In this document: positions 3,696-37,347 of the stretch, in pieces
Layout: each line of letters opens with the position of its first letter
Position numbering within the stretch: position 1 is the first letter of the stretch
Position numbers and translations under genes: made by a program
Source of the DNA: a virus
IMG/VR virus record: IMGVR_UViG_3300010150_000058
Span: 1 to 37,347 of that record
Direction: 5' to 3' (one strand)
Length of the DNA: 37,347 nucleotides
Notes under the pieces: model-generated
What the model was told of the DNA's origin: nothing
What the model saw: the letters and a program-made list of their open reading frames with translations, nothing else
Databases searched by the model: none

Positions 3696-3757
3696 AATAA
3701 TTATTCAGATTAGTTTTGTATCAACAAAATGCAAAAAGTTGCTGCACATTTTATAGA

Positions 3758-18361: not shown

Positions 18362-18364
18362 TTT

Positions 18365-19951: not shown

Positions 19952-19969
19952 TTTAAACCATTTTTTTAT

Positions 19970-19977
19970 TATTTATA
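19970..19977 (-). promoter_or_regulatory. Late promoter box (TATAAATA) before gp8
   Basis: An exact T4 late consensus TATAAATA on the minus strand, located in the 30-base gap between gp7 and gp8. It ends 18 bases before the gp8 ATG, so the transcript would have a very short leader of roughly a dozen bases. Exact match plus intergenic placement make this the best late promoter in the window. Confidence 0.75.
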
Positions 19978-19981
19978 AGTG

Positions 19982-22900: not shown

Positions 22901-25900
22901 ATTTTCAGTAAGAGGAGTTTGGAATATTCCATTAATAAACAATATACCATTTCCAGAAGTTGTTCCTAAACCAACTGTACTTATTCCTTGAGATTTTAAT
23001 TCAAAAGTAGTTGTTTTTCCGTCAAATTCATTTGAAAAATCATCAAAAATTTCATTTGTAGTATAATTTTTCCTCAGAAAAGTTCTACCATTAAAAGTTG
23101 CTCTTGCTCTGAATAAATTTGATTCATCTTTTGTTGACAAATCTCCAACATTTCCTCTTGGAGGATTAGTAAAGTGTATAGAATCGCCAACAATGTTATA
23201 TGATCCCTTGTAAAGTGAGACACTATCTCCAATATCATGAGATGTTGCAGCACTGCCAACACTACCACGTTTTACCTCTACAACATTTAAATCTCCAGTA
23301 AAATACAAGATAGGTCCGGAAGTTGATGTTCCTATACCAACATTCAATACTTGCATATATTCATCATCAACTTTTATGATATCATTTGGATTTATTGAAC
23401 TTATACCCGATAAAGTTACAAAAGTATCTGCAATTCCTACATTTTTATCAGAGATTGAATGACTAATGTCTGTATATAATAAAGGATATTGTGCCAAATC
23501 ATTAATGGTTATTAAAACCTTTTCATTTTTCTTATACATTTCAAATTCATGTGCATTACCTTCACCCAAATAAGATGAAAACTGTATTGCAATATCATTA
23601 TTTGCATCATATTCACTTAAAGCAACTTTGAAATTGTCATTATCAATTTTTATTGCATAAACTTCAGTAGACAATCCAACATTACTACTAGTATGAATTG
23701 CACTATTTCCTAATCCAATAAATGTTGACTTTGGTGTGTAAATTAATCTTTCGCCAGTACTAAAGAAATGATTATTTAAAGTAAACTGCCCTGTAGTAGG
23801 GTCGAATTTAGTTTGGTCAAAAGGATCAAAAGACTTATTGAAAATTGGAACATTATCATACTTTAAAGGAAAATCAAGTCTATTTCTTTGAGTGGAATTA
23901 ACGCCAAAATATTTTGCAACACTAAAAGATTTATTTAATGATCCAATATCCAAATCTAATGGAATGTTTATTTCATCTAAAAATGTATAGAATGAGTAAT
24001 CCAGTTGTGTAATAGTTAAATTTGAATTGGAATATTCATCATTTCTTTCAAATTCTAATTTCAGATTATTTTGATTAAGACTAGTTTTAAATACACCCAT
24101 TGTATTACCAATAGAAGTAATAGGTCCTTCAACTATATACGAGTTTTCACTATCATGTATGTTTACAATTTGATGCAAAGAAACAGTATTCCCAATACTC
24201 ACTCTAGCTAATGTCTTTATTGTAGAAAATAATTCTCGATCATAATACCTGGTTGTGACAATTCCCACACTGGTTCCAGTTTCATAAACAGAAGTATCTA
24301 AAACTACAGTTCTTTCAGAATTATCATCCTGCCTTTGAGATTTAAATCTATAGGTTCCTACACCAACTGGACTACTCTTAAATTGATACGATTTTGTTCT
24401 TACTAGTGTGTTAGATATCTCATCACAATAAAAACTCAAGTTTAAATTATTTGAACTTTTTTTAATTCCGAATGTTCCCAATCCGATAGATGATATATCA
24501 TTATCTGATGATTCAAAATTTGATTCTGAAAATATAAACTCTGTACCATCATATAATGACACAATTTCATAATATTTTGATTGATTAGAATCTAAATCTA
24601 CTACGTGCGCTTCTACCATTATAGAATCATATGTAGTTAAATCATAGGAAGTAATTACATCTTCGGTAATTTTACTTCCAACATTTTTTTGATTTGTAAA
24701 AATATCTGCAGCATCGAATGATAATAAATTTTCATTATCATTAAAATTAGTATATTTTTCATTAAAAACCTTTATTTCATAATCAATATCATAAGGATTA
24801 TTTGGATAAAAATATAAATCCAAATCACCAGTATCAGTTGCAACTGGTGATATTGTCATATAAGTTTCAGAATTTGAATTATTATTATGAGATAGTTTAT
24901 CTAAACTATAAACATTTTCTACTCCATCATATAATGATACAATTTCAAAATATGCTAACTGATTATATCCTTTACTAATACTATTATTTGTAGTTTTTAC
25001 TTGGACTAAAGTCTTATAGAAAGATCTTCTATCCGATAAACTTTTTATAATTAAATTTGTATCATACTCTTCATCATCTTCACTACTAAAAAGTGGACTT
25101 ATGTCATCAATTTGAAGAACTCTATTTGACTGTGAGAGGAAATAGTCTGATAACTTTATATTTTTAAATTGAATAAATTTACTTCTATCGTTTAAAGGAC
25201 TAAAATCAGTGACAACATCAAAGTTCTTAATTGTATCTACTCTAGTTTGAGAAATAAATGATTGGAGACTTTCAACAACGCTACTGTTAGTTAGACCAGT
25301 TGTTAATATACCAGAAACATTCTGTTGAATTTGGGTATCTGCAAAGTTTTTGGTTCCTATTGGATGAACGATAGTATTAATTGGAGTTTTTATTTCATCC
25401 CAAGTTTTTTCACTTTTAAGAGTATATGATAAATTCTGATAATAATCATTATCAGAAATAACTTGTGTATCTGTATTAGTTTTTCCAGAATCACTATCCC
25501 ATCCATAATCTTTAGTAGAAGATCCAGAGATGAGATAGTATCCATTAATTAAAGATACATCAAAAATATCTGCTCTAAATCCAGAACTCTTTCCAATTAT
25601 AGTGACTCCAGTGTCTAACTTATAATTTCCATTCAACTTCAAATAATCTTTATTTACCTCCCCTACTGTTAATCCAGTTTCAATCATCAATCCAGATTGA
25701 TCAAGTATAAAAATTTCTTCTTTAATGAAGAATGCCGAATAATCTTGGTTTGCTACAAATGAAGGATAATCGGTAGATTTAATCATTGTAGCAAAGCTGT
25801 CTATTTGAAATGTGACTGCAATACCCGGATCTCCAAATAATTTAGGTATTTGGATAGTAACTTCTCCTGGATTAGAATTTGAGGTGTAGTCAATTACATC

Positions 25901-28900
25901 AAAAAATTCAAATCCATGATATTCGGAATTGTATCCAATCCCAGTATCTTCTAAAATTTGTATATCCTCTACAAAAACTTTGTCTCCTACTTCAAAAGGA
26001 TCTTCCACATATCCCAAAATGGGAGTTTTTAATAAGCATGTTATTATGCCAGTGTTACTGCTATCAACTTCAATAATTCTTATTCCATTTGCATTGTTAA
26101 CAGACTTAATTGATACTTGTCTTTCAGGTAATCCAGTAACTGGTGCTGATATTTCAACTGCCGTTATATTTGCATTACCAATACCAGATCCTGATATTTC
26201 TGCAGTTAGAAGTCCCCGATCAATTTTTTTGCCAGTATCAGAATCAACAATTACTAAAGATGGGGCATTTGGGTATCCACTTCCTCCATCAACAACTTCT
26301 ACAGATTTTAAAAACTGCGAATTAACCAAACTTACATTCTGCGATGTCTTTAAAGCTGGTGATATGGTATTGTCAATACTATATTCATAACCATAATTCA
26401 ATTCACTATAATCGATAAGTTTTCCTACACTTTTCGATCTTAGTGCTACTAATAGACCAGTTCCATTTGCAGAATTTGATCCCGCATAATATGGAACATT
26501 ATTATATAAATTTCCTTCGCTAATAATTTTTAAATCATATACAGATCCAATTCCTGTCAATGAATTGGTAGTATATTCTAATGTTGAGCAATCTGCACTA
26601 CTATACGATAGTCTTTCTGGAACATTATCTAGAAAAATATCAAATTTAGTATCTTGGACGTTAGATATTAAATATTTTCCACTATATGCACTATTTTTAA
26701 ATAAAATTTTCGATTTATGTGACGTATTTATAACTTTCGACTCTGCATTCACCAATGAATAGTATAATACATCGGGTAAATTATCATTATATCTTAAAGT
26801 TAGGGATGCTTCTGAAGATACTCCTACAATACCAACACCAGATGTGGAAAATTCTAATGTATTTGATGTTGAAATAAATTCATCATTTAAGTCTTCATCA
26901 TAAAAAAGATTTAGTTTATAGTTTTCTAAAGAACTATCAGATAAGTCAAAGACTAAATTATTGTTCCTAACCAAGTTTATATTTGGTTGAATTAATGAAA
27001 TTTCTTGAGTTCCTATACCAACGCTATTAATAGAAACTAATCTTGGCAATTCTGATATAGAATCTTTATAAGTTTCGGATAATCTTATAGTATCGATATC
27101 AACTTTATTGACATAATATACTCCTTCATTTAATCCAGATGGAGTTGAAGTTGAAATATAATAGACCTCATCACCACTAGAAAGCAGATGATTTTCTATA
27201 CTTATAGAATTTGTGTTTATGTCTATATCTGTAAGTGTACTAAATCCTATAGTTTTTAAAGACAATGAATTTATTTCTGGTATGTACTTTACATCCACAA
27301 ATGTGGTATTTCCAACACCCACATTTAGCTTTGGAGAAACTTTTAAATCAATTAAATCGCCAGATGTTAGATTGTGGAAAGTTGATATTGAAACTGTAGT
27401 TAGATTTTGATATACAGTAGAAATTTCTTCGTTATATGCAGATTCAAAATTATAATCATAATTATTTGATCCAACATTAGAATTAGATGGAAAATAAAGT
27501 CCATTCGTAGTAATTGTCAAATTAGAAGAAGTTACTATGCCAATATAATCTTTTGACTTATTGATTATATAAAGTTTTTCTGGAAGTACTGTATTTAATA
27601 AAATTGATGTATTGGAATTTGGATCATCTTGTACTGTAATTGATGCTGAATTAGTAGAACCTTTATATAAAAGAACCTCTTGTCCAGTATGAAAACCGTG
27701 ATTTGGTAAATAAATGCTTTGAGTTTGTATATTTTTAGTTATTAACTCGCCACCAAGATAAAATGATCGTGAAGTGGTGATTCCAGAGATTGTTCCAACA
27801 CCAATGGATTGGGCAGGATTAAAATATCTTTTATAATTTTCAATATTATTATTTGATTCAATATTAGAATTTATTCTTATAATGTTTGGTAAAAAATTGA
27901 CAGTGGATAATGATGTACTTGCTCCACTAACTCCAGTTTTCCTACATCGTACTATCTTTTTATCTGGAAAATAATTGAAAATAGTAAAATACTGATCATT
28001 TGATTCTCCCTTAATTTCAATAGAACTTCCAATAGATACCATTTTGGGGAAGTTTTGTAGTTTAATATCAGTAACAATTCCAGTTACATTTGGATGATGA
28101 GTTCCTGAAGTTGCATTTGGATCATAGGATGGAATTTCTTCATCAAGTTTAGTAGAAAAGGTATCAACTTCTGCAACGTAATCTCCATTTAGAGGTTCAA
28201 AATTTGTTGTTAATCCAGTAATACTAATTACAGTATTATTTACTATATCATGGGATGGTAATATTCGTATAAAACTGCTAGAAGCATTATAAGGATATAC
28301 TTTTGCATTAGTATACTTTATATAATTATTTTCTATATTATCAATTTGTTTTCCATAAATTGACCCAACTTCAGATACAAATCCATATCCAGATGAAGAT
28401 GGAGAATTTTCAAAGTTTAATGTGTCACCAACCTTAAAATTAGATCCAGCTTTAATTATTTCGTATGAATCTATAGATCCTTTAGTGACAGAATTTATCT
28501 CTACAGTATGACTATTAGATGAACTATTGGAGGGGAAGAAATCATATCCTGCATATGCATCTTGCACTTTATATGGAAATGTATTTCTGAATAGTGAACT
28601 ATTTTCAAAGTCAAACGATTGGTTTAGTATATTATTATTATTATCATCTACCAACTTACTTCTGTAATTAATACCAATAAAATATGGAAAAGATCCTACA
28701 TTTTCATTGTTTGGATTCAATATGGCAGTTGCAAAATATGCATAAACGCCATTTGGAAATTCTGGTGTTTTGCACCATCTACCGTTATGAATATCTAAAT
28801 CGCCACTATTATTAAATTTATAGTCATCTATAAAATAACCTTCTGGAAATTCTGAATTTGTTGGTCTATTTGTAATATTGCTGAGACTCTTATTATATCC

Positions 28901-31900
28901 AGAAACTAATCTTTTAATTATTGTTGGATTTTCTGGATCTTTATATCCAAGAGGTCCATAAATTGGATTTCCGTCATAAGCCCAACCAATAATTGATGAG
29001 TGACTCGTTTCATTATCATTAAATTCATTTTTTAACAAGTCCGAGTATCCACTTACAACATACTGCAACTCATTATTAATGTTTTTATATAAAAATTCAT
29101 ATGAAGGATCTCTTCTGTCCGAATATTGAATTCCATACTTATATGAATTATCAACAGTTAAGGATCTAACTCTTGCATTTATAATTGCATTTTTCCCACT
29201 GAAAACTGGAATGATTTTTATGTCATCAAAAGAATAATTGGCACCAGATTCTATGACATGAACAGTAGATACTCTATTATTGGAAATTTCTGCTCTAAGA
29301 ATTGCTCCAATACCTTTATTGCTGATTACCTGCAATTCTGGGACAGAATAATAATCATAACCTCCATAATTTACAATTACCCTATCAATTTTACCTGCAG
29401 AAGTAACTACAGGAGTAAAAGATGCTTCTTTTCCTTGCTGTATAATTACATTAGGCGATTCTTCAATATTTAATAATGTAGATCCATATCCACTTCCCTC
29501 TTCATATAAGTATGCATCAATAATACCTCCTTTTACAACTGGTGTAGTAACAATACTAGATGCAACCTGTTCCCCATCGGAAACATAACTAATTTGAACA
29601 CTAATATCCGGATAATTGAAATATTGGTAACCACTTCCACTAGATCCTATAGAAACGTATTTTTCTCTAGAATAAAAAGAAATGTCTGTTCCACCGACAC
29701 CAGCATTACATACTCTAAACGAATCATCATCAACTTTTAAAATGTAGTATTGATTCGTTGTAGAAATTCCAGATATAGAACTTGTTTCAAAATCATACGT
29801 AACTAATTCTCCAGAAGAAAATCCGTGGTTTTTGAAGGTTATAGTATCATTGATGGTTGAAATGCCTGATTGCTTTACCGTCAATTTTCTATTAGTAAAT
29901 CCTTCACCGGGATTTTCGACAATTATTGAAGATATTACATTTCTAGGTTCAGTTTTAAACTTATGTATACCAGAATTGCCTTCTGTCGATAACCCTACAG
30001 TATTAATTCCACTCCTAAAGTCTGATAATGTTGGATATAGTTCAACAGTTGATGGATTTATTACCTTGACAAAAAATGGAGTATTATTAGTTAAATAACC
30101 AGTACTCACATTCAATCCACCAAAGTTGGAAATACCAATTTTTTGATTATTAATATCATTAATATCATAAAAAACTTTTTCGCCGCTAAAAAAGTTATGA
30201 TTTGTTAGAAATGTTATAGTCTCATCATCAAAACTAAGTCCGCCACCATCAGATAAGGTGCGAGCATTAAAGAAAACTTCTCTAGAAAATGTTTTTGTAT
30301 TGGCCTTTAATTTTGCATTTTTTCCATTTCCCCCACTTATTGTTACTATAGGAGAATCTGATTCAAAATCAATATTATCAATATATACTTTTTCTATAGA
30401 TCCTTGCAAAACGGGTTGTATTTTAGCAGATCCACTTTCTAACTTTAAATTTGGTGGATTTATTACATCATAACCAGAACCTGAGTTAATTGTATCTAAT
30501 TTTTCTAATGGTCCATAATAAATTTTGCTATTGCTTACAGATCCCAATATTTCCACACCATTTATTAATGTACCAATTGGTTTTGATTCAATTTTTTCTC
30601 CAGATGTAGATAAATTTACATAATATGGTATCTTTTTAAAACTTTTTGATGAAGAAATTTTGTTAGTAGATGTTATTTGATCTGATAATGTAAAAGTATG
30701 AGTTCCTTCTGGAAGTATATTACTTCCTAAGTAAATAAAATTATCTGTAGGAATTGAAGAAGGGGAAAGGTATAATTTTATATCCAGAAAATTTGATATC
30801 GTTATATAATATTCCCCTTTCTCCAAACCATTGATAGGATTTTCTCCACTATGAGAATAAAATACTTTATCACCATTAATAAATGATGATATCGAATTAA
30901 ATCTTATTGTTGTATAAGAATTTTTACTCTCATCATAATTTATTATACTATTTGCTGTAGACTTTACAACATCTTTTGTAATATTATAAGATGGTAATGA
31001 ATTTGATGCTACGTATAAATTTTCTGAATTTTCATCATAAAGGTTAATAATATTAGTAGTTAAATTATTATATTTTAGTGGAACTTGAGTACTTTGAGCA
31101 AAATCTAATTTTCTGCGGATATCATAACTTCCAAAAGAATTTAATGAAGATAATCCACTACTAAAAGTTATTTCATTATCAAAAATATCATTAACAGAAA
31201 CATCTGAGAGTGTAGTTTCAACTATTTCAGTATTTCTTTTTAAGAATTCTACCCTATCACCAACTTTTAAAAATGCTCTATCTAGAACTGTACTTGTTGT
31301 TGCAGTAGATCCCTCAAAGTTTACAGAGTCAAGTTCAATTCTTACACTAGTATTGTAAATGAAACTATTAGAAATAATTTGATCTCTGGTATTATCATCA
31401 GTATTTTTTATATTTTTACCAAAAGAATCGACAGATATAGTTTCTCCAACAGAATTTATATGCGTTTTGTTATTAGATGTATCTAATAAAATATCAGACA
31501 ATGATCCTAATAATCTAAATTCTACTTTTTTTGTAGAATCTCCATTTTCATAAGCATAATAAGTGGAATTGCTGTGAAGATTAGAAGTTTTTACAATATC
31601 TAAGTCAATATAATTACTTGTTGTGGTGTAACACCCAAGAAATTGATTTACAGTTTTTTCAGTATAAAAAATTTCAGTTCCAGCATAAAAAATACTACCA
31701 GTTTGCTCAAATCCAATAGTTGAATCTACTGTCAATACATTTGCATTATCTGACAAATTTATTGAATCTACTAGTTTTGTAGATGGTGTAGGTGCAAATA
31801 CGCTTGTTAATTCATCGTTAGATTCTTCAAATCCGACATATAATAAAATTCTATAGAATGTACGTCCATTTTTTGTGAGTATTTCTATTTCGGAAATAGA

Positions 31901-32719
31901 TCCAAAAATATCAGGATTAGTATTTTTAAATAATTGTTGTCCAACAATATTTGAAGGATCTCCAGTAGATATTAATTCGGTTAGTAACTCTTTTCTTCTA
32001 CGAAAATCTGAATTTGAAGACTTAATTACATAATTTTCAAGATCTATAATTTGGGGTTCTATATTAAAAAGTGATTTGAATAAAAGTCTAAACGATTCTA
32101 AACTTCCTTTAGATCTATACAATGATGTTGTATTTTTTAAAAACTTATTTACATCTAATCCTTCATATAAATCCGTAGTTTCTAGTTCATTTAGTAATGA
32201 TGTCTTTATTTTACTATAAAATTCTTTTAAAAATAAGACACTTAAGTTGATAACTTCACTTTCACTGACATGAGAGGAGATATTTGTAGAACTAAAGTTT
32301 AAATTTTTTCCATACTCATCAATTCCGCTAAAATTTCTAATACAATCAACAAAACTAGTTGGTGTTTTTGATTTATAGGTGATAATTTCACTACCAATTT
32401 GAAGTAATCCGTAATTTTTTGGAAATCCTTCAGTATCTGCTACAAAAATTTCAGGTGTAATACCATTTTCTAATGTTGTCGTGACATTTTGCGTTAAATT
32501 TGTAGTTCCATTTAAAATTTTAGACGTGAAATTGTCTAATTTTAAATAATACGGCAAATTTTCTACAATATCTACATTACCACCTGATATTTCTTGGGAA
32601 ACATAATACTGTTTTAAAAATTCTGAAAACTTTGGATTTTCTGAAGAGATAAATTCAGGTATTTGACTATTTAAAATATCCTGGATTTGGACTTTATTTT
32701 CAAAACTGGTTTGTATCAT
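19982..32719 (-). CDS. 7: Giant gp7-like baseplate wedge protein with repeats and YHYH domain
   Basis: A 4245-residue protein in the gp7 position between gp6 and gp8; T4 gp7, which nucleates wedge assembly, is 1032 residues. The first 330 residues carry the cyanophage gp7-like head: IPEFISSENPKFSEFLKQYY, NLSVLFLKEFYSKIK, SLYRSKGSLESFRLLFKSLF, IDLENYVIKSS. The middle is beta-rich: GxGY repeats (about 740, 1020-1130, 2140, 3600, 3975, 4035) and NHxFxxGE units (about 840, 965, 1670, 1840, 2980, 3520). A YHYH-type domain lies at about 1235-1350 (GWAYDGNPIYGPLGY, GDLDIHNGRWCKTPEFPNGV). A segment at about 3535 reads KFTCSSDGHKFVIGYPRATD. The C-terminus (GKFSWGKISGFTRS, PTVQRRGAGAGLRDTGSLKK) is the family end. 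Ribosome site AAGGA precedes the ATG. One uninterrupted frame, no sign of decay. Confidence 0.88.
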   Translation of the reverse strand: MIQTSFENKVQIQDILNSQIPEFISSENPKFSEFLKQYYVSQEISGGNVDIVENLPYYLKLDNFTSKILNGTTNLTQNVTTTLENGITPEIFVADTEGFPKNYGLLQIGSEIITYKSKTPTSFVDCIRNFSGIDEYGKNLNFSSTNISSHVSESEVINLSVLFLKEFYSKIKTSLLNELETTDLYEGLDVNKFLKNTTSLYRSKGSLESFRLLFKSLFNIEPQIIDLENYVIKSSNSDFRRRKELLTELISTGDPSNIVGQQLFKNTNPDIFGSISEIEILTKNGRTFYRILLYVGFEESNDELTSVFAPTPSTKLVDSINLSDNANVLTVDSTIGFEQTGSIFYAGTEIFYTEKTVNQFLGCYTTTSNYIDLDIVKTSNLHSNSTYYAYENGDSTKKVEFRLLGSLSDILLDTSNNKTHINSVGETISVDSFGKNIKNTDDNTRDQIISNSFIYNTSVRIELDSVNFEGSTATTSTVLDRAFLKVGDRVEFLKRNTEIVETTLSDVSVNDIFDNEITFSSGLSSLNSFGSYDIRRKLDFAQSTQVPLKYNNLTTNIINLYDENSENLYVASNSLPSYNITKDVVKSTANSIINYDESKNSYTTIRFNSISSFINGDKVFYSHSGENPINGLEKGEYYITISNFLDIKLYLSPSSIPTDNFIYLGSNILPEGTHTFTLSDQITSTNKISSSKSFKKIPYYVNLSTSGEKIESKPIGTLINGVEILGSVSNSKIYYGPLEKLDTINSGSGYDVINPPNLKLESGSAKIQPVLQGSIEKVYIDNIDFESDSPIVTISGGNGKNAKLKANTKTFSREVFFNARTLSDGGGLSFDDETITFLTNHNFFSGEKVFYDINDINNQKIGISNFGGLNVSTGYLTNNTPFFVKVINPSTVELYPTLSDFRSGINTVGLSTEGNSGIHKFKTEPRNVISSIIVENPGEGFTNRKLTVKQSGISTINDTITFKNHGFSSGELVTYDFETSSISGISTTNQYYILKVDDDSFRVCNAGVGGTDISFYSREKYVSIGSSGSGYQYFNYPDISVQISYVSDGEQVASSIVTTPVVKGGIIDAYLYEEGSGYGSTLLNIEESPNVIIQQGKEASFTPVVTSAGKIDRVIVNYGGYDYYSVPELQVISNKGIGAILRAEISNNRVSTVHVIESGANYSFDDIKIIPVFSGKNAIINARVRSLTVDNSYKYGIQYSDRRDPSYEFLYKNINNELQYVVSGYSDLLKNEFNDNETSHSSIIGWAYDGNPIYGPLGYKDPENPTIIKRLVSGYNKSLSNITNRPTNSEFPEGYFIDDYKFNNSGDLDIHNGRWCKTPEFPNGVYAYFATAILNPNNENVGSFPYFIGINYRSKLVDDNNNNILNQSFDFENSSLFRNTFPYKVQDAYAGYDFFPSNSSSNSHTVEINSVTKGSIDSYEIIKAGSNFKVGDTLNFENSPSSSGYGFVSEVGSIYGKQIDNIENNYIKYTNAKVYPYNASSSFIRILPSHDIVNNTVISITGLTTNFEPLNGDYVAEVDTFSTKLDEEIPSYDPNATSGTHHPNVTGIVTDIKLQNFPKMVSIGSSIEIKGESNDQYFTIFNYFPDKKIVRCRKTGVSGASTSLSTVNFLPNIIRINSNIESNNNIENYKRYFNPAQSIGVGTISGITTSRSFYLGGELITKNIQTQSIYLPNHGFHTGQEVLLYKGSTNSASITVQDDPNSNTSILLNTVLPEKLYIINKSKDYIGIVTSSNLTITTNGLYFPSNSNVGSNNYDYNFESAYNEEISTVYQNLTTVSISTFHNLTSGDLIDLKVSPKLNVGVGNTTFVDVKYIPEINSLSLKTIGFSTLTDIDINTNSISIENHLLSSGDEVYYISTSTPSGLNEGVYYVNKVDIDTIRLSETYKDSISELPRLVSINSVGIGTQEISLIQPNINLVRNNNLVFDLSDSSLENYKLNLFYDEDLNDEFISTSNTLEFSTSGVGIVGVSSEASLTLRYNDNLPDVLYYSLVNAESKVINTSHKSKILFKNSAYSGKYLISNVQDTKFDIFLDNVPERLSYSSADCSTLEYTTNSLTGIGSVYDLKIISEGNLYNNVPYYAGSNSANGTGLLVALRSKSVGKLIDYSELNYGYEYSIDNTISPALKTSQNVSLVNSQFLKSVEVVDGGSGYPNAPSLVIVDSDTGKKIDRGLLTAEISGSGIGNANITAVEISAPVTGLPERQVSIKSVNNANGIRIIEVDSSNTGIITCLLKTPILGYVEDPFEVGDKVFVEDIQILEDTGIGYNSEYHGFEFFDVIDYTSNSNPGEVTIQIPKLFGDPGIAVTFQIDSFATMIKSTDYPSFVANQDYSAFFIKEEIFILDQSGLMIETGLTVGEVNKDYLKLNGNYKLDTGVTIIGKSSGFRADIFDVSLINGYYLISGSSTKDYGWDSDSGKTNTDTQVISDNDYYQNLSYTLKSEKTWDEIKTPINTIVHPIGTKNFADTQIQQNVSGILTTGLTNSSVVESLQSFISQTRVDTIKNFDVVTDFSPLNDRSKFIQFKNIKLSDYFLSQSNRVLQIDDISPLFSSEDDEEYDTNLIIKSLSDRRSFYKTLVQVKTTNNSISKGYNQLAYFEIVSLYDGVENVYSLDKLSHNNNSNSETYMTISPVATDTGDLDLYFYPNNPYDIDYEIKVFNEKYTNFNDNENLLSFDAADIFTNQKNVGSKITEDVITSYDLTTYDSIMVEAHVVDLDSNQSKYYEIVSLYDGTEFIFSESNFESSDNDISSIGLGTFGIKKSSNNLNLSFYCDEISNTLVRTKSYQFKSSPVGVGTYRFKSQRQDDNSERTVVLDTSVYETGTSVGIVTTRYYDRELFSTIKTLARVSIGNTVSLHQIVNIHDSENSYIVEGPITSIGNTMGVFKTSLNQNNLKLEFERNDEYSNSNLTITQLDYSFYTFLDEINIPLDLDIGSLNKSFSVAKYFGVNSTQRNRLDFPLKYDNVPIFNKSFDPFDQTKFDPTTGQFTLNNHFFSTGERLIYTPKSTFIGLGNSAIHTSSNVGLSTEVYAIKIDNDNFKVALSEYDANNDIAIQFSSYLGEGNAHEFEMYKKNEKVLITINDLAQYPLLYTDISHSISDKNVGIADTFVTLSGISSINPNDIIKVDDEYMQVLNVGIGTSTSGPILYFTGDLNVVEVKRGSVGSAATSHDIGDSVSLYKGSYNIVGDSIHFTNPPRGNVGDLSTKDESNLFRARATFNGRTFLRKNYTTNEIFDDFSNEFDGKTTTFELKSQGISTVGLGTTSGNGILFINGIFQTPLTENITNHNFKIVSDIPAGISSVVFSGLRDDLDVLTISDSDINQNQLPRGGIIVSLGSTAGLGYAPLVGAKVKLNIDDNGTILNPVISVASTGKTVAITTATYDNNLGHLTITSPQEEIYKLVESKANQVKLVGLAFTCNSNTGITSEFPLHDDVTDIIGIGTESFSLNVGISTLEHYYVGYGTVFVWNSRLTNGSGYRQDTASVSVKDAAEDYIHKFVESDENSVQSGGNNFTPTFATYNPVTGNMVLVIENHGLDTGDDITVTTGSLKFTCSSDGHKFVIGYPRATDPLAGIATDITAYTDDTITIDAGSMVGSGGVVDVTVGLGGTLSFNVSNGGTNYTYPILNISNPSYDNLEVVGVSRLGVGATTEVGINMLMNVEVGPSPGIDESGSVGIGSTLFEVSSFSVARAGYAFETGDVLTVSGIVTDRHLSEPIEKFQLYVLNTYNDSVAAWQFGEMNLIDSIKPYQNGSRLVYPLYYETELLSFSKDPNDLTSSAIDFDSLLVIFINGILQEPGIAYQFVGGSAFRFLTAPKVEDDVKIYFYVGTRGEDSSRVDVNEIIQIGDTLQIQSNNSYLDITKQQDKRLIYDIVNADILETNLYYGDGIDEINLKPIDWIRQKEDIVINQQTYYKSRDSLATQVYPTAKVITDFNTTDTVLYLDNSEFFDYEDAVNLKKIDVLVVPNQDNNKVGIITAIVSATGTISSFDIVDAGIGYTNAPSVNVSNPIIGIGSDRKWYNVGIGTSGDVGIGTTATASVTVSNGNIDSVTVINPGSGYTSTNPPQVILDFPTFESELLTNANVVQGLSGSIVGIATTTGTNGAPLALEFTLKALNDNYTSITEGIPIHIFDTRIGNGITSINDNNDTEVIGISTQFLNNIYKVHGIDTITGIITCNVKSDTNISGEVGIGTTGTLLNPVGKFSWGKISGFTRSNNPVSIAITSYTTSGLGTYPTVQRRGAGAGLRDTGSLKKRTTST

Positions 32720-32720
32720 A

Positions 32721-34664
32721 TTAATTCCTTATTATACTTCCATTAGAATAACTTGACTTGTAATAATCACTAGTGGAGAAGAGAACACCGGTCGTATTTT
32801 CTCCAGATGAAATAACATCTTTAATAATATTTATTTTAGTTTTTGAAGTGCTTAATGACAGGTAAAGATCTTTTAATCCTATAATATCATTAGACTCTGG
32901 AAAAGCTTGAATTTCAATAATATTATTAGGAACTTCTGTACTGATAATATTAATAGCACTTATTTTAATTTCTCCGGTCACATAATCTACAGTACCTGCA
33001 GATTTAAGTATGACTATGGGTGAAATACCTGGAGTAGATGATGGTTTTATAACTGCAATTGTACCTTTCAACTTATCACTATTTGGTATATCAGTAAAAT
33101 AAACAAATTCATTATTAGCGACTCTAGAATTAACTCTAAATCCGGTTGATTTTATATTCCCACCTTCAGGATTTACATAAAATCTATTCCCAAAACATAA
33201 CTCATATTCACTAAATTGATTTATAAGACAATTTAAGTTTCTTCTAATAATTACTCTAGTGATATTTGATGTAATAGCAGTATCTGACTCATCAATTAAA
33301 TTGATTGCCTTACTATACTTAAATCTTCCTCCTCGTTTTGATGAGTATAAGGAATTGCCAAAAGTTGTTAATGAATTTTGTACTTTAGATTTAATTGCAA
33401 GTGGTGTGGATGACTTGGTTGTGTCATAATAGATACTTGAATCGAGTTCAATATACAATACTTTAATATCTACAATTTTTTGGTTGATACCGGTAATTGA
33501 ATACTGCTTTAATTCGGATAGAATGTTTTTCTTATCAAAATCTGAAATAATTAATCCATTTTTTGGTTTGATTGCAATAGTTACTGAACCATATTCTGGT
33601 GGATCTAATTCTTCTCCACCAATTACATTCACCACATCTGCATTTGGATAGATATTTGTCTTAATAATAGACTCATAGTCTCTTGCTGTTACTGCACGAT
33701 ATTGTGATGAGTATATTCTTGGTGCATAATATCTAATTGAATCTATACTTTCAATATCCGATCCATTTCTGGAAGGTTGAACTGTTTGGACATTGATGGC
33801 ATTTGTTGCTTGTATCGAAATTATATTTTGAGAAGATTTTTTCCCTTGATATGATCCAGAAAATGAAAATTCTGAGACACCATTGCCTTCAGAACCATCT
33901 GTTACAATATAATGAACAACAATTTCCGATCCATTTTCTAATTTTTTGCCGAATACACCATCTCCGAACAATAACTCATATTTTTCATCTTTAACTTCCT
34001 GAATTAGATATATTTCAGACTCACTATCTACTGTAGTTATATTATCGACTAAATTATATTTTTTACCTGTTCCAACCGAATCAATATTCCTTACATACAC
34101 TCTTATAGTACTTGTATCAATATAGGGATTCTGTAAAATAAATCTTTGATCTAGAGATCCATCAACAGTAAATATTTTATTTAAATATCTACCCTGATAA
34201 ATTTGTATATTGGAAAATGAGGCTACATTACTAGAATTAACAGTTTGACTAATCTCTTCAGTAATTGAGAAAATATATGACGAATTGTTTGATGATCCAA
34301 CACAAATTAATTCTGGTTGGAGAATAATTGATGTAATTGGATCATCAAGAGATGATTGTTGAATTTCAAGATCAAATGATACGATTGCTGTTGCTGCTTT
34401 TTTTGATTTTGGAACATATCCAATGTTTCTTGCTAAGGAAACGACATTCTCTCTAATCGTAGCAGAGTCTAGAAAGACTTCATTAACTGCTAAGTTTGAG
34501 TTGAATGCATTAATATAAGTATTATACGCTAATGTGTCGATTAAGACTGAGAAGTTTGATCCTTCAAAATCATAATCGGTAAAATTAGAATTAGACCTCA
34601 AATAATCTTTAATTGAGGTCTTTATTTGATCAAAATCTAAATTTGTGTAATTTGTAAAAGGCAT
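32721..34664 (-). CDS. 6: Baseplate wedge protein gp6
   Basis: A core baseplate wedge protein that forms the ring joining wedges together. Length 647 residues (T4 gp6 is 660). The start MPFTNYTNLDFDQIKTSIKD, then FTDYDFEGSNFSVLIDTLAY, AFNSNLAVNEVFLDSATIRE and NVVSLARNIGYVPKSKKAA are characteristic of gp6 and the wider baseplate J-like family. The central ELLFGDGVFGKKLENGSEIV and the RYYAPRIYSSQYRAVTARDY segment, with ALNIYPNADVV-like residues after it, also fit. Unlike gp7, gp8 and gp14 it is not enlarged and carries no GxGY repeats. It starts one base after the gp25 stop and ends one base before gp7, so translation is probably coupled across all three. Confidence 0.96.
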   Translation of the reverse strand: MPFTNYTNLDFDQIKTSIKDYLRSNSNFTDYDFEGSNFSVLIDTLAYNTYINAFNSNLAVNEVFLDSATIRENVVSLARNIGYVPKSKKAATAIVSFDLEIQQSSLDDPITSIILQPELICVGSSNNSSYIFSITEEISQTVNSSNVASFSNIQIYQGRYLNKIFTVDGSLDQRFILQNPYIDTSTIRVYVRNIDSVGTGKKYNLVDNITTVDSESEIYLIQEVKDEKYELLFGDGVFGKKLENGSEIVVHYIVTDGSEGNGVSEFSFSGSYQGKKSSQNIISIQATNAINVQTVQPSRNGSDIESIDSIRYYAPRIYSSQYRAVTARDYESIIKTNIYPNADVVNVIGGEELDPPEYGSVTIAIKPKNGLIISDFDKKNILSELKQYSITGINQKIVDIKVLYIELDSSIYYDTTKSSTPLAIKSKVQNSLTTFGNSLYSSKRGGRFKYSKAINLIDESDTAITSNITRVIIRRNLNCLINQFSEYELCFGNRFYVNPEGGNIKSTGFRVNSRVANNEFVYFTDIPNSDKLKGTIAVIKPSSTPGISPIVILKSAGTVDYVTGEIKISAINIISTEVPNNIIEIQAFPESNDIIGLKDLYLSLSTSKTKINIIKDVISSGENTTGVLFSTSDYYKSSYSNGSIIRN

Positions 34665-34665
34665 T

Positions 34666-35067
34666 TTATCTCGTTGCCTCTAGAATGAAAGTAAACTCTT
34701 GTGTTGGAATGTCTTGTCCGATAATATCAAATACTATAAGTACTTCTAAAGCATTATCATCATAATCTAAATCAATATCCACTTTAACATTTTCGACTCT
34801 GGGTTCGAAATTATTGATTGAAGTGATAATTTGGTTTTCAATTACACCAATTGTTGCAAAATCTATATTATCAAATAATGATGATTTTACATCACTTCCA
34901 AATGATGAATTAAAAAATTTTTCATTTGGAATTGTTTCGACAATATTACGAATAGATCTTGTGATTGCCCTTTCATTTTTTAAAATGGCTAGATCTTTTG
35001 TTACAGGATGTGGTTCAAATGATAAACTAATATCTTTAAATGATCTTGATATTCTTTTTATTGCCAT
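34666..35067 (-). CDS. 25: Baseplate wedge protein gp25
   Basis: A small sheath-initiator and wedge protein at the baseplate, binding gp6 and related to type VI secretion TssE. Length 133 residues, against 132 in T4. The sequence begins MAIKRISRSFKDISLSFEPH, has LAILKNERAITRSIRNIVET, and the family signature FFNSSFGSDVKSSLFDN followed by INNFEPRVENVKVDID with the conserved E-P-R. The short upstream gap holds a late-type CATAAATA box overlapping the stop of the 60-residue gene and a 14-base perfect palindrome near the expected transcript start. No strong ribosome site is visible. It is first of the compact gp25-gp6-gp7 run. Confidence 0.96.
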   Translation of the reverse strand: MAIKRISRSFKDISLSFEPHPVTKDLAILKNERAITRSIRNIVETIPNEKFFNSSFGSDVKSSLFDNIDFATIGVIENQIITSINNFEPRVENVKVDIDLDYDDNALEVLIVFDIIGQDIPTQEFTFILEATR

Positions 35068-35073
35068 TCGGAC

Positions 35074-35087
35074 AAGACTATAGTCTT
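35074..35087. repeat. 14-base perfect palindrome in gp25 leader
   Basis: AAGACTATAGTCTT is a perfect palindrome between the CATAAATA box and the gp25 ATG. It could be a protein-binding site or, in RNA, a five-base-pair hairpin with a four-base loop at the extreme 5' end of a transcript starting about seven bases past the box. A 14-base palindrome is uncommon by chance, but function is unknown. Confidence 0.5.
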
Positions 35088-35091
35088 CAAT

Positions 35092-35099
35092 TATTTATG
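35092..35099 (-). promoter_or_regulatory. Late-type promoter box (CATAAATA) before gp25
   Basis: CATAAATA on the minus strand, overlapping the stop codon of the 60-residue gene and 24 bases before the gp25 ATG. It matches seven of eight positions of the T4 late box. The position before the baseplate operon supports it. Confidence 0.6.
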
Positions 35100-35277
35100 A
35101 CTCATCGCGCATCTTTTTTGCAGTATCATGATATACCTCTTGAATACAGTGCTTTTCTGCCTCTTCATTGCATTCATCTTCTTTTGGTAATCCATTCCAA
35201 TAATCACTGATGAGGTGTGTAGTACCCCATGTTTTATACATATAGTCCTGATTTCTATCGACAGGTGAATTGCCCAT
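35095..35277 (-). CDS. 60-residue protein of unknown function
   Basis: A small acidic protein, MGNSPVDRNQDYMYKTWGTT followed by HLISDYWNGLPKEDECNEEA, ending HCIQEVYHDTAKKMRDES. The 'WGTTHL[IV][AS]DYWNG' stretch recurs in small proteins upstream of gp25 in related cyanophages by recollection. Two cysteines and several His/Glu residues are present but form no recognised metal site. The second half looks helical. It has a clear ribosome site (CGGAGAA) and a late-type box AATAAATA about 57 bases upstream, so it opens the structural block. Its leader holds a seven-base-pair hairpin. Function unknown. Confidence 0.8.
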   Translation of the reverse strand: MGNSPVDRNQDYMYKTWGTTHLISDYWNGLPKEDECNEEAEKHCIQEVYHDTAKKMRDES

Positions 35278-35299
35278 GTTTCTCCGGTTTTATAAGAAA

Positions 35300-35323
35300 A
35301 TAGAACTTTTTAAGGGGTTCTAT
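35300..35323 (-). other. Leader hairpin before the 60-aa gene
   Basis: On the minus strand, ATAGAAC and GTTCTAT (seven base pairs) enclose a ten-base loop CCCTTAAAAA and are followed by TTTCTTATA. It lies between the AATAAATA box and the CGGAGAA ribosome site, so it would form in the 5' leader of the transcript. It could protect the mRNA end, or act as a weak attenuator because of the U-rich tail. Structure is seen; role is inference. Confidence 0.45.
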
Positions 35324-35333
35324 CCCTAACTAC

Positions 35334-35341
35334 TATTTATT
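35334..35341 (-). promoter_or_regulatory. Late-type promoter box (AATAAATA) opening the structural block
   Basis: AATAAATA on the minus strand lies nine bases past the stem of a rho-independent terminator and 57 bases before the ATG of the 60-residue gene. The terminator-then-late-promoter arrangement is expected where an earlier-expressed block ends and a late block begins. Confidence 0.6.
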
Positions 35342-35346
35342 TTTTT

Positions 35347-35374
35347 AATAAAAAAGATCCCCTTAAGGATCTTT
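35347..35374 (-). terminator. Rho-independent terminator
   Basis: On the minus strand, AAAGATCC and GGATCTTT form a perfect eight-base-pair stem with a six-base loop TTAAGG, and the 3' arm continues into TTATTAAAA. The transcript thus ends in a GC-containing stem and a U-rich run. It begins six bases after the TAG of the 42-residue gene, so it ends the small-gene transcript. The A-run on the other side could make it work in both directions, but no plus-strand gene is present. Confidence 0.8.
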
Positions 35375-35379
35375 ATAAT

Positions 35380-35508
35380 CTAGTCACAATGATGTATGTG
35401 ATGATCTGTATGAGTACCTAGAATATATGGATGTCCTAATTCCCAAATAATCATTGAAACAGATGAAATAATTGTGACTTGAAGAATCTTTTTAAGATTA
35501 ATTCTCAT
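35380..35508 (-). CDS. 42-residue membrane-type peptide with His-rich tail
   Basis: A small gene read from the sequence: ATG at 35506-35508, TAG at 35380-35382. The protein begins MRINLKKILQVTIISSVSMI, continues IWELGHPYILG, and ends THTDHHIHHCD. It has a basic N-terminus, one hydrophobic segment (about residues 8-23) that could cross or anchor in the inner membrane, and a tail with five His and one Cys within ten residues, which could bind a metal. The ATG overlaps the stop of the 45-residue gene as TAATG. The terminator follows six bases after its stop. Function unknown; not a recognised holin or lysis protein. Confidence 0.7.
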   Translation of the reverse strand: MRINLKKILQVTIISSVSMIIWELGHPYILGTHTDHHIHHCD

Positions 35509-35645
35509 TATCCTCTGCCTTGTCCACGATAACGCTTTCGAGTCTTGTTACGAGAAGTTGGTCCATACTTAGTATGCTTTCCCGTTCCTTGACGAGACTT
35601 TTTGGGACTCGCTTCCACATAACCACCACCTTTACGAATTGCCAT
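35508..35645 (-). CDS. 45-residue very basic Gly-rich protein
   Basis: A small gene: ATG at 35643-35645, TAA at 35508-35510. The protein starts MAIRKGGGYVEASPKKSRQG, continues TGKHTKYGPTSRNKTRKRYR, and ends GQGRG. Lys, Arg and Gly dominate, with no acidic cluster and no hydrophobic core, so it is probably disordered and nucleic-acid binding. Proteins that open 'MAIRKGGGYVEASPKKSRQG' recur in cyanophages by recollection. A ribosome-like site AGAGGA lies a little far upstream of the ATG. The stop overlaps the next ATG (TAATG). A role in binding host or phage RNA/DNA is inference. Confidence 0.75.
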   Translation of the reverse strand: MAIRKGGGYVEASPKKSRQGTGKHTKYGPTSRNKTRKRYRGQGRG

Positions 35646-35651
35646 AAGACT

Positions 35652-35813
35652 TTAATCCTCTATAATAATTTTATATGTAATGGAACTTGGGTCAGGTGTT
35701 CCTGATGAATAAAACCCCTCTGCATAATCTTCCATGAGATCAAAGTACTCTTCCTCAGAAAGATGAGAATGTTTTAACTTACCTTCGATGTAAACGTCGT
35801 ACTTCTCTCTCAT
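35652..35813 (-). CDS. 53-residue acidic protein of unknown function
   Basis: A small gene: ATG at 35811-35813, TAA at 35652-35654. The protein begins MREKYDVYIEGKLKHSHLSE, continues EEYFDLMEDYAEGFYSSGTP, and ends ITYKIIIED. It looks like a small alpha/beta fold: a first strand (YDVYIEGK), an acidic helix (SEEEYFDLMEDYAE), and a last strand (ITYKIIIE). Similar tiny proteins with an 'EEEYFDxMEDL' helix are known in cyanophages by recollection. It starts four bases after the glycosyltransferase-like gene and was probably transcribed with it. Function unknown. Confidence 0.75.
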   Translation of the reverse strand: MREKYDVYIEGKLKHSHLSEEEYFDLMEDYAEGFYSSGTPDPSSITYKIIIED

Positions 35814-35817
35814 AATA

Positions 35818-36570
35818 TCAGATCACACGAGTCTTTTCGTGCCCAACGCGAATGCGAGGATCACACCAAATCTCAAATCCTGCTTCCTTTGCATCGAGAC
35901 AAAACGAAACATCTTCGCCACACATGTCCTGTACTTCACCACTCTCAAAAACTTGCATCTTTGGTGCAAACCATGGATATTCAAGATTCTCAAAAATTCC
36001 TTTCTTAATTAAAAGCCATCCGAATCCTGCATAATCTACAGTAAATGGTTTACGCCGCTTTGAAATACTCTCCCCAGTCTCATGATTCATGACTCCCCCA
36101 TTGTTACGGAAATCATCCTCCTCCATCCAATGTGCAACACTTGTAGTTGTTCCATCTTCTGTCATATACCAACCACTTGCAATGTCTTGATCCATTAATA
36201 CTAATTGCCAAAACTTCTCTGTGTTAAACACAATATCACTATCAATCCATAATTGATAATCATACGGTAACTTACCATCCCATGGTTTCTGCTTTGGTCC
36301 ACGCAATACATTCGCACCTAAACATTTGCATCTCGCAAAGTTTACCATTGAACTGTAATCTTGCGAAATTTGAATACTTGCTCCTGCTTGTACTAAGTCA
36401 AAACATAATTGAACAAAGTTCTTGAGATAAGTATATGAAACTCCCCTCCCAGGTAGACAGAATACTACTGACTTACCACGAACCATTTGTTTTGCTAAGT
36501 CATAATCCCATTCTTCTGTATCTTTCTTCGTGACGGGAGCTTTTGCTTTTACAGTAAATCCTTTTGCCAT
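35818..36570 (-). CDS. GT-A-fold glycosyltransferase-like protein
   Basis: A 250-residue protein with the layout of a nucleotide-sugar-dependent glycosyltransferase. It has an early strand and loop (VVFCLPGRGVSYTYLKNF, about 35-52), a middle NFARCKCLGANVLRGPKQ, then LWIDSDIVF (about 108-115) with the D-x-D metal and sugar-nucleotide motif. A later AGFGWLLIKKGIFE (about 176-189) and C-terminal CGEDVSFCLDAKEAGFEIW with DPRIRVGH resemble the acceptor-site end of family 2-like enzymes. Similar proteins are common in cyanophages. The substrate is unknown; modification of host surface or phage protein is possible. A sigma70-like promoter lies just upstream, so it may be expressed early from host polymerase. 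Confidence 0.8.
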   Translation of the reverse strand: MAKGFTVKAKAPVTKKDTEEWDYDLAKQMVRGKSVVFCLPGRGVSYTYLKNFVQLCFDLVQAGASIQISQDYSSMVNFARCKCLGANVLRGPKQKPWDGKLPYDYQLWIDSDIVFNTEKFWQLVLMDQDIASGWYMTEDGTTTSVAHWMEEDDFRNNGGVMNHETGESISKRRKPFTVDYAGFGWLLIKKGIFENLEYPWFAPKMQVFESGEVQDMCGEDVSFCLDAKEAGFEIWCDPRIRVGHEKTRVI

Positions 36571-36593
36571 AATCGAATGATTTTTACTTCAAT

Positions 36594-36622
36594 ATCATAC
36601 CACTTATATAGTGATTAGTCAA
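36594..36622 (-). promoter_or_regulatory. Sigma70-like promoter before glycosyltransferase gene
   Basis: On the minus strand TTGACT (-35) and TATGAT (-10) are separated by exactly 17 bases. Each hexamer matches consensus at five of six positions. It lies in the 53-base gap and ends 24 bases before the ATG, with the upstream gene's stop just before the -35. The spacer holds an inverted repeat, CACT-N5-AGTG, at 36601-36613, which could be an operator. Likely an early or middle promoter read by host RNA polymerase. Confidence 0.72.
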
Positions 36623-36623
36623 T

Positions 36624-36818
36624 TTAATGTGATGAGTCGCATATTGTCGATTTTGAGTAGTTGAGTTCCTCAAAACTCAGATCCTCAATGTCGTACTCCG
36701 TTTTCATAAGACCTACCATCCCTTTGATATTATTCCAGGCTTCTCTGAATTCATCACTATCTAATCCATAGTATAAACATTCATTCCCTGCGTAAATGTG
36801 ATACATCTTTTCAGTCAT
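36624..36818 (-). CDS. 64-residue protein of unknown function
   Basis: A small acidic protein, MTEKMYHIYAGNECLYYGLD followed by SDEFREAWNNIKGMVGLMKT, ending in a Glu-rich strand-like segment (IEDLSFEELNYSKS). The 'YxIYAGNECLYYxLDxxEF' opening resembles small proteins found widely in cyanophages. An in-frame Met at position 5 is possible, but the first ATG follows a very strong ribosome site (AAAGGAGGT with five bases spacing) at 36824-36832 inside the end of the AbrB-like gene, so the start is firm. It is one base downstream of that gene and surely in the same transcript. Function unknown. Confidence 0.82.
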   Translation of the reverse strand: MTEKMYHIYAGNECLYYGLDSDEFREAWNNIKGMVGLMKTEYDIEDLSFEELNYSKSTICDSSH

Positions 36819-36819
36819 C

Positions 36820-36987
36820 TCATACCTCCTTTAATACTAATTGATCACTATCAATGATCCATTCAATCTCTGTACCCTCATACCATTCGAGATCATTGAT
36901 CATCCACTCAGGTATTGTAACATAATATTCGCTAGTCGCTGGATCGATCTCTACAGTCGAAAAATTTTTGGCGGAATTTTTTTCCAT
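36820..36987 (-). CDS. AbrB/MazE-like small protein
   Basis: A short protein resembling the swapped-hairpin AbrB/MazE/SpoVT DNA-binding fold: FSTVEIDPATSEYYVTIPEW, then MINDLEWYEGTEIEW and IIDSDQLVLKEV. These give beta strands, a 'IPEWMINDLEWYEGTEIE' turn and a last strand, as in cyanophage MazE-like proteins. The frame extends to an ATG at 37050 (76 residues), but the extra 21 residues come from A/T runs and a TATAAT-like box, and no proper ribosome site precedes that start; the ATG at 36985-36987 (55 residues) is preferred. Neither start has a good ribosome site. It may regulate transcription, for example at the sigma70-like promoter downstream; no toxin partner is seen nearby. Confidence 0.72.
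   Translation of the reverse strand: MEKNSAKNFSTVEIDPATSEYYVTIPEWMINDLEWYEGTEIEWIIDSDQLVLKEV
36824..36832 (-). promoter_or_regulatory. Strong ribosome binding site for the 64-aa gene
   Basis: AAAGGAGGT on the minus strand, five bases before the ATG at 36818 and overlapping the last codons of the AbrB-like gene. It is the strongest Shine-Dalgarno match I see in the window and fixes the start. Confidence 0.8.
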
Positions 36988-37008
36988 ATCATTTGCTACT
37001 ATTTTTGA

Positions 37009-37038
37009 ATTATATATGGAATCTGATTTTTTTGCGAA
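37009..37038 (-). promoter_or_regulatory. Possible sigma70-like promoter for the AbrB-like gene
   Basis: TATAAT at 37009-37014 on the minus strand is an exact -10 match. A weak -35 (TTCGCA, four of six) lies 18 bases before it and overlaps an A7/T7 inverted repeat. If used, the transcript would start just before the ATG at 36987, favouring the shorter protein. Weak because the region is very AT-rich. Confidence 0.4.
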
Positions 37039-37044
37039 AAAAAT
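37026..37044. repeat. A7/T7 inverted repeat
   Basis: Seven T, the triplet GCG, and seven A (plus strand) form a perfect 19-base inverted repeat including the flanking A and T. It lies over the possible -35 of the AbrB-like gene. It may bend DNA, form a hairpin or bind a regulator; it also makes slippage during replication possible. Confidence 0.6.
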
Positions 37045-37090
37045 TCTCATTCCCTTTGTATTTTATTGAGTGATTTTGTAATCCTTTGAA

Positions 37091-37097
37091 ATTTATA
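37091..37097 (-). promoter_or_regulatory. Possible late-type box upstream of AbrB-like gene
   Basis: TATAAAT on the minus strand (within CTATATAAATTTC) in the non-coding gap, about 40 bases before the ATG at 37050. It matches seven of eight late-box positions but differs at the last base. If active it would favour the longer protein. Weak. Confidence 0.3.
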
Positions 37098-37221
37098 TAG
37101 AGTCTTATATCTTATGGTCGTCCGTAACACTTTGTAGACTCATGGTACCTACGAAAAAAAGGAAGGGGGGGGTATAAGGACTGCTGATAACGCATAATCG
37201 ACTGATCAGCACTGCTAATCG

Positions 37222-37270
37222 GTAACACTCTGAAATAGTGTTACTTAAGGGGAGGATTAGTCCCCTTAAG
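37222..37270. other. Two abutting perfect hairpins after the truncated gene
   Basis: GTAACACT and AGTGTTAC (eight base pairs, seven-base loop) span 37222-37244. CTTAAGGGGA and TCCCCTTAAG (ten base pairs, seven-base loop) span 37244-37270 and share one base. They lie two bases past the stop of the gene at the right edge, in its 3' untranslated region. Neither is followed by a U-run on either strand, so a simple rho-independent terminator is doubtful; transcript end protection or processing is possible. The rest of the 222-base gap (37051-37272) holds a C8 run, a T7 run, an imperfect TGCTGAT/ATCAGCA stem, and no gene. Confidence 0.65.
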
Positions 37271-37272
37271 TG

Positions 37273-37347
37273 TTAATCTGCCTCGGTATAAACCCAGACG
37301 TTAAATTCTCCAACATCGATTCTTTCGTCCCTTAAGTGAGAATAATC
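37273..37347 (-). CDS. C-terminal end of an unidentified protein (cut by window edge)
   Basis: The last 24 codons and TAA of a minus-strand gene that begins outside the window. The visible end reads DYSHLRDERIDVGEFNVWVY, then TEAD. It is called coding because the frame is open to the edge, the composition is balanced, and the hairpins directly follow its stop. Too short to identify. Confidence 0.6.
   Translation of the reverse strand, partial: DYSHLRDERIDVGEFNVWVYTEAD

Follow-up and report, generated by a model that had tools for sequence, protein, structure and literature searches.

A probable dedicated early promoter with a gene-specific spacer element ahead of a conserved glycosyltransferase-like gene of cyanomyoviruses

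The DNA analysed here (the window, a stretch of 37,347 bases) is a virus record with T4-like genes, for instance a gp25-like gene and other baseplate genes, and the virus is related to phage T4 and belongs to a group infecting cyanobacteria. Early and middle transcription of T4-like cyanophages has been described as still unclear (available text of PMC2984593), and the locus studied here raises the question of whether a host-type promoter in front of one glycosyltransferase-like gene is a genuine control site, when it would be used, and whether a small AbrB/MazE-like protein encoded nearby acts on it through its spacer. Based on its conservation among relatives, we consider it likely that the site is an early promoter dedicated to a glycosyltransferase-like gene conserved in cyanomyoviruses, combined with a gene-specific element in the spacer.

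A sigma70-type site conserved in most sampled relatives

The sequence TTGACT-N17-TATGAT (TTGACTAATCACTATATAAGTGGTATGAT) is found at 36594-36622 on the minus strand, where it matches the consensus at 10 of 12 positions, has a spacer of 17 nt and a TG one base before the -10, and ends 23 nt from the ATG (36570) of the glycosyltransferase-like gene (Table 1). Both letter patterns named by the earlier note, namely this promoter ahead of the glycosyltransferase gene and a CACT-N5-AGTG repeat inside its spacer, are present. Its statement that all other good boxes in the window are of the late type is not quite right, given a TTGACA-N15-TATGAT at 26560-26534 inside a gene of 4245 codons, and further promoter-like sites in a loose scan, at chance level (123 in positions 18000-37347 vs 119.2 in shuffles).

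Table 1. Features of the glycosyltransferase-like locus, in window coordinates
Feature	Position	Strand	Basis or remark
-35-less box CATATATAATT before the AbrB-like gene	37008..37018	-	TATATAA in 124/127 distinct upstream regions
AbrB/MazE-like gene, start placed at M22 of the listed ORF	36820..36987	-	alignment, profile
64-aa gene, phrog_2626, directly upstream of the promoter	36624..36818	-	profile match
-35 hexamer TTGACT	36617..36622	-	TTGAC kept in relatives (site choice favours TTGAC)
Conserved spacer word [CA]TANATAA, here CTATATAA	36604..36611	-	distinct-spacer count and column logo
CACT-N5-AGTG inverted repeat	36601..36613	-	overlaps the conserved spacer word; own conservation not clear
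-10 hexamer TATGAT, TG one base before	36594..36599	-	commonest -10 in relatives, 113/237
Predicted transcription start, G 7 nt past the -10	36587	-	predicted; column G in 70% of 104 non-redundant regions
Glycosyltransferase-like gene, 250 aa, phrog_1574	35818..36570	-	profile 1.5e-119
53-aa gene, phrog_3252, likely same unit as the glycosyltransferase-like gene	35652..35813	-	profile
45-aa basic ORF, likely same unit	35508..35645	-	ORF
42-aa ORF, likely same unit	35380..35508	-	ORF
Terminator-like hairpin with T-rich tail, possible unit end	35353..35374	-	5 such sites in the region vs 5.2 expected

The window alone is compatible with a chance match in AT-rich DNA, since its counts lie close to expectation: exact hexamers at a spacing of 15-19 are expected 0.13 times and a match is present in 12 of 100 shuffles, while TTGAC-N16-18-TATRAT occurs twice compared with a mean of 0.56, and two occurrences were reached in 15 of 100 shuffles. 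It is conservation in relatives, and not the counts in the window, that lifts the promoter above chance. Relatives were collected by protein scans with the window enzyme, the AbrB-like protein and the enzymes of S-SCSM1 and P-SSM2 as queries, keeping per scan the best 80 of at least 599 relatives for the three enzyme queries and of 94 for the AbrB query, so that close relatives dominate the sample. Together with 15 named phage records that were added to these loci, this gave 332 loci plus the window, of which 331 had an enzyme match and 329 a usable start; from these came 241 upstream regions, each 90 nt or longer and none identical to another.

A sigma70-type promoter was present at the glycosyltransferase-like gene in 237 of these 241 upstream regions, with a spacer of 17 (214) or 18 nt (23); the best-scoring site was taken per region and TATGAT was counted as a full -10, both of which inflate the conservation of the -35 and -10. 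Scored against the plain TTGACA/TATAAT consensus, 236 of the 237 passing regions have at least 10 of 12 matches and the remaining one has 9. The same search passed 41 of 1205 shuffled upstream regions and 11 of 213 windows placed 420-520 nt upstream. These controls, at 3-5%, make a chance match extremely improbable in view of the 237/241 conservation. The stretch from the -10 to the ATG measures 22-24 nt in 194 of the 237 regions, and the columns of the spacer and the leader played no part in the choice of sites. The sequence and its position are thus established, and its architecture is fixed in most sampled relatives, with near-consensus hexamers, a spacer within 16-18 nt and a place directly ahead of the gene, as in a sigma70-type early promoter. 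Locus L082 is 99.94% identical to the window across 3293 nt and is not an independent witness.

Four of the 241 regions failed. Two of them (L029 and L033) carry HNH endonuclease genes (PF13392; at 3519-3995 and 2339-2833, respectively) between the promoter and the start codon of the enzyme gene, and their full promoter lies about 500 nt upstream, before the inserted gene. The other two (L070 and L163) do not fit the promoter. Among the 15 named phages the promoter is clear in 11, i.e., P-SSM2, S-SRM01, S-T4, Bellamy, SynMITS9220M01, S-SCSM1, S-CAM9, S-B05, P-TIM68, Sf-CH8 and DSL-LC02, while S-SSM6a and Sf-FS3 pass the score unconvincingly. ACG-2014f (L163, upstream of 2501) has kept TACATA and a partial -10 (GTATGA) and lacks TTGAC, and its promoter is either decayed or different. 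No such promoter is visible in S-TIM61 (L171), which stands outside the 241 regions as it has no aligned ATG. As isolates of ACG-2014f form a large share of the 104 phage records with the enzyme gene, the promoter is less universal by records than by IMG/VR contigs. The failures in ACG-2014f and S-TIM61 narrow the universality of the promoter and not its nature. We also observed that in several relatives (e.g., L161 and L165) the TGA stop codon of the upstream gene lies inside the TTGACA box; these upstream genes are either AbrB-like, ending in D, or phrog_2626, ending in SY.

A second conserved word within the spacer

The spacers contain a further conserved word. TANATA, starting at positions 4-9, occurs in 159 of 203 distinct spacers compared with 5.8 in shuffles (max 13). 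A column logo of 104 regions less than 75% alike gives [CA]TA.ATAA at spacer positions 5-12, and in the same regions an A before the -35, mostly G or T directly before the -10, and a G 7 nt past the -10, which in the window falls on the transcription start that the earlier note had predicted. The word is asymmetric, with CTATATAA as its form in the window, and its variable base (n=159) is T in 55, G in 51, C in 42 and A in 11. It is missing in 46 of the 237 regions, including the palindrome-bearing lineages L025 and L255.

The inverted repeat seen in the window spacer behaves differently from this word, with a mean best arm in spacers vs shuffles of 3.28 vs 3.29 (n=50) and 3.37 vs 3.31 (n=101). 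Arms of at least 6 occur in 5 spacers of the n=101 set vs 1.75 in shuffles (max 5), and 4-N5-4 repeats in 13 of 203 spacers vs 6.5 (max 14). A slight excess is possible, and an operator role of the repeat is not supported at this near-shuffle level.

A composite 29-base pattern of the hexamers and the word was used to scan IMG/VR by DNA alone, which gave at least 120 matches. Among the 120 matches listed, 118 stand ahead of the glycosyltransferase-like gene, 114 of them at 20-39 nt, 2 at 40-59 nt and 2 at about 500 nt with an HNH insert; of the remaining two, one lies directly before an enzyme gene that matches from residue 14, and the other (L424) is not followed by an enzyme gene. The protein scans had already yielded many of these contigs, so that this is a blind search and not a new sample. 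A looser form of the composite occurred six times in six of the 15 named records, always at the enzyme gene (reversed control, 2), and was absent in the other nine. The full composite pattern is thus almost confined to the glycosyltransferase-like gene. The word alone does not qualify as a general cyanophage promoter class, as CTATATAA is rare in four genomes (3-5 copies each on the gene strand), in which ATAAATA is frequent and strand-biased. In other promoter-like sites of the 15 named records, CTATATAAT serves as the -10. The spacer word is best read as a second, gene-specific element, apparently under selection.

Candidate readers of the spacer and the leader

The AbrB/MazE-like gene had been placed immediately upstream of the promoter; a 64-codon phrog_2626 gene (36624-36818) intervenes. 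An alignment of 14 AbrB-like sequences, in which M22 is invariant and the preceding stretch is variable or absent, indicates that the true start is probably residue 22. The Pfam match of the window protein is below the cut-off (0.0038), its model is poor (mean pLDDT 54), and a fold search with this model gave no useful match. The possibility that this protein binds the repeat in the spacer and represses the promoter draws on the resemblance of 13 of the 14 aligned members to MazE_antitoxin at E<=0.1 (best 8.7e-6), on the presence of the AbrB-like gene no more than 1.5 kb upstream in 146 of the 241 regions (one of the four scans used this very protein as query), and on the TATATAA letters that also precede the AbrB-like gene in 124 of 127 cases, as autoregulation would need. 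The small AbrB-like gene in the cluster and the AT-rich, operator-like words likewise resemble autoregulated AbrB/MazE operators. Unlike in such operators, the spacer word is independent of the AbrB-like gene: it occurs in 119 of 146 regions with the gene within 1.5 kb vs 59 of 77 without (Fisher p = 0.39), where 'without' requires an upstream sequence of 700 nt or more and 18 shorter regions were left unclassed. The classing is imperfect: P-SSM2 falls among the regions 'without' the gene, although a phrog_661 match (69258-69410) is located about 1.5 kb upstream of its enzyme. A phrog_661 match (E 0.01) is absent in six of the 15 named phage records, and three of these six (Bellamy, SynMITS9220M01 and P-TIM68) have a TANATA spacer word; S-SCSM1 shows just ACATA, and S-SSM6a and Sf-FS3 lack a convincing promoter. 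Moreover, the spacer repeats are near shuffle level and not conserved together with the regulator, and the TATATAA box also stands before phrog_2626 genes for which no AbrB-like gene was found (56/65). With the word equally common where no AbrB-like gene is nearby, we reject AbrB adjacency as its cause and consider repression through the spacer repeat, a form of the AbrB control raised in the earlier note, very unlikely. Judged by these comparisons, the spacer word does not appear to be, in general, an AbrB operator.

The AbrB-like protein could alternatively bind a palindrome around the transcription start and not the spacer, which we regard as unlikely. Palindromic arms of at least 6 occur in 26 of 102 distinct leaders (-10 to ATG) with an AbrB-like gene vs 4.4 in shuffles (max 9), and in 6 of 68 without vs 2.5 (max 9), counts that are inflated by lineage kinship; a further 14 leaders, one with such arms, were left unclassed as their upstream DNA was too short. 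Several letter families (TGAATCGATTCA, AAGTAACGTTACTT, GTTGTACGTACAAC and TTGTAATTACAA) take about one place, which would fit such binding. At odds with it, the central 8 bases of none of 32 leader palindromes recur in the upstream DNA examined, and the leader of the window has no palindrome worth naming. The AbrB set gave z values of 2.4 and 2.9 at centre u10.5, with equally large values elsewhere among 88 centre tests, so that symmetry about a fixed centre does not stand out. As AbrB operators, the leader palindromes are suggestive only. Perfect palindromes near the predicted start were seen in L006, L010, L025, L047, L057, L264 and others, mostly AbrB-bearing loci.

The spacer word might also be an overlapping late or middle promoter, in which case the gene would be transcribed from the sigma70 promoter early on and from the word at a later stage. 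For T4-like phages without MotA, an overlap of early with late promoters has been proposed (available text of PMC2984593), the first gene of the neighbouring cluster is preceded by similar letters that lack a -35, and the AT-rich TANATAA looks like the late promoters of T4-like phages, given as NATAAATA in cyanophages (PMC2984593, in the text available). The word differs from these late promoters at the deciding position, where A is the rarest base (11/159), which argues against a hidden late box, and there is no ATAAATA at 36594-36622; the rarity of CTATATAA in the four genomes compared with the frequent, strand-biased ATAAATA points the same way. A late box in the spacer is therefore rejected. 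T4 middle promoters share a regulatory element upstream of the -10, the MotA box (available text of PMC5780444); the present site differs from them in having its word inside the spacer and a good -35, with TTGAC present and conserved where a MotA box would replace it, and cyanomyoviruses are described as lacking motA and asiA homologues (PMC2984593, in the text available). Overall, we judge an overlapping late or middle promoter improbable.

The gene-specific element in the spacer of the sigma70-type promoter has a partial counterpart in the box before the AbrB-like gene, where no TTGAC promoter was found in any of 127 distinct upstream regions. TATATAA precedes phrog_2626 in 56 of 65 cases when no AbrB-like gene was found, and in 0 of 30 when one lies upstream, which ties the box to the leading gene of the cluster, be it AbrB-like or phrog_2626. 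The box resembles the spacer word and also an ordinary -10. We tentatively consider, as a reading with chances well below even, that one factor common to cyanomyoviruses, or a phage-modified host polymerase, reads TANATAA at both cluster sites, i.e., within the glycosyltransferase promoter spacer and in the -35-less TATATAA box before the first small gene. Upstream of this box, CTACAAAGTGTTACGG or variants were noted (window 37139-37116, minus strand), and words of this type recur within about 90 nt before AbrB-like genes at many loci; an Rfam search of the window at gathering cut-offs gave no match. Several phages also have a second promoter-like family in which TTGAC is directly followed by TATATA or TAAATA, as in P-SSM2 (235229), Bellamy (201942), SynMITS9220M01 (186569) and S-T4 (61686).

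The predicted transcription unit and its probable timing

Relatives of the enzyme occur in 104 phage records (judged by how their names begin, chiefly Synechococcus, with 83, Prochlorococcus, with 6, and cyanophage, with 6), and are 78-90% identical to the window enzyme in an alignment of 32 sequences (the window and 31 chosen relatives). A Pfam search with the window enzyme found no family. Its designation as a glycosyltransferase, based on a phrog_34859 match (1e-5), on the name that some depositors gave to the relatives in these records, and on the best fold matches of a low-confidence model (mean pLDDT 56.4) to chains of human lysyl hydroxylase LH3 (E 3.6e-4, TM 0.48 by query), seems reasonable, although weakly based. 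LH3 chains hold a glycosyltransferase domain. As a side observation, set beside this weak match to a lysyl hydroxylase, three of the 15 named phages have genes annotated as dioxygenase-type close to the enzyme gene (P-SSM2, L160, at 3312-3953 and 5086-5679; L167 at 1-445; L173 at 1426-2091).

We propose that host RNA polymerase with its primary sigma factor would read TTGACT-17-TATGAT and begin transcription near 36587, giving a transcript that would span the glycosyltransferase-like gene plus the small genes that follow, probably as far as 35353-35374. A terminator-like site followed by a late-type box (35340) lies between this unit and the baseplate genes, with ATAAATA boxes at 35340 and 35098 before gp25, and the unit would be read ahead of the late promoters that serve the baseplate genes. 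The word [CA]TANATAA would most likely be recognised by a protein or by a modified polymerase, which would thereby tune the promoter.

Sigma70 use, the start site, early timing and the end of the unit are inferred from the DNA. The site resembles T4-type early and cyanobacterial SigA (sigma70) promoters in its TTGAC-17-TATRAT arrangement with a start expected about 7 nt downstream, in its short leader and in the location of the gene outside the late block; unlike in those promoters, here the promoter of one gene, and a conserved word in its spacer, are kept in most sampled members of a phage group. In most named records, plain TTGAC-N18-TATRAT sites lie largely on one strand (W04 and W10 are mixed), as is expected of early promoters in genomes read mainly one way. 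Cyanomyovirus early genes may be transcribed by the unmodified host sigma70 polymerase, and sigma70-like early motifs were reported in S-PM2 and Syn9 and not found in S-RSM4 (both in the available text of PMC2984593); cyanophage sigma70 promoters have also been predicted with BPROM (available text of PMC3037559). In cyanophage Ma-LMM01, early, middle and late genes all have sigma70-like sites (available text of PMC5780444), so that the promoter type alone cannot fix the timing. Of the suggestion that this is an early or middle expressed unit, perhaps controlled by the AbrB-like protein, early expression thus gains indirect support from the conserved sigma70-type promoter, and AbrB control through the spacer is not supported. 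Judged by titles and the beginnings of abstracts, no paper treats the glycosyltransferase promoter, most subscription papers being outside this search, and the literature searched contained no published expression results for the glycosyltransferase-like gene.

The locus offers a test object for early and middle control in cyanophages, with one site and one gene in several cultured phages, and with natural variants available that have or lack the AbrB-like gene and the spacer word. If a common factor does read TANATAA at both sites of the cluster, these would form a two-site, gene-specific circuit, which would partly answer how cyanophages without MotA run their middle phase.
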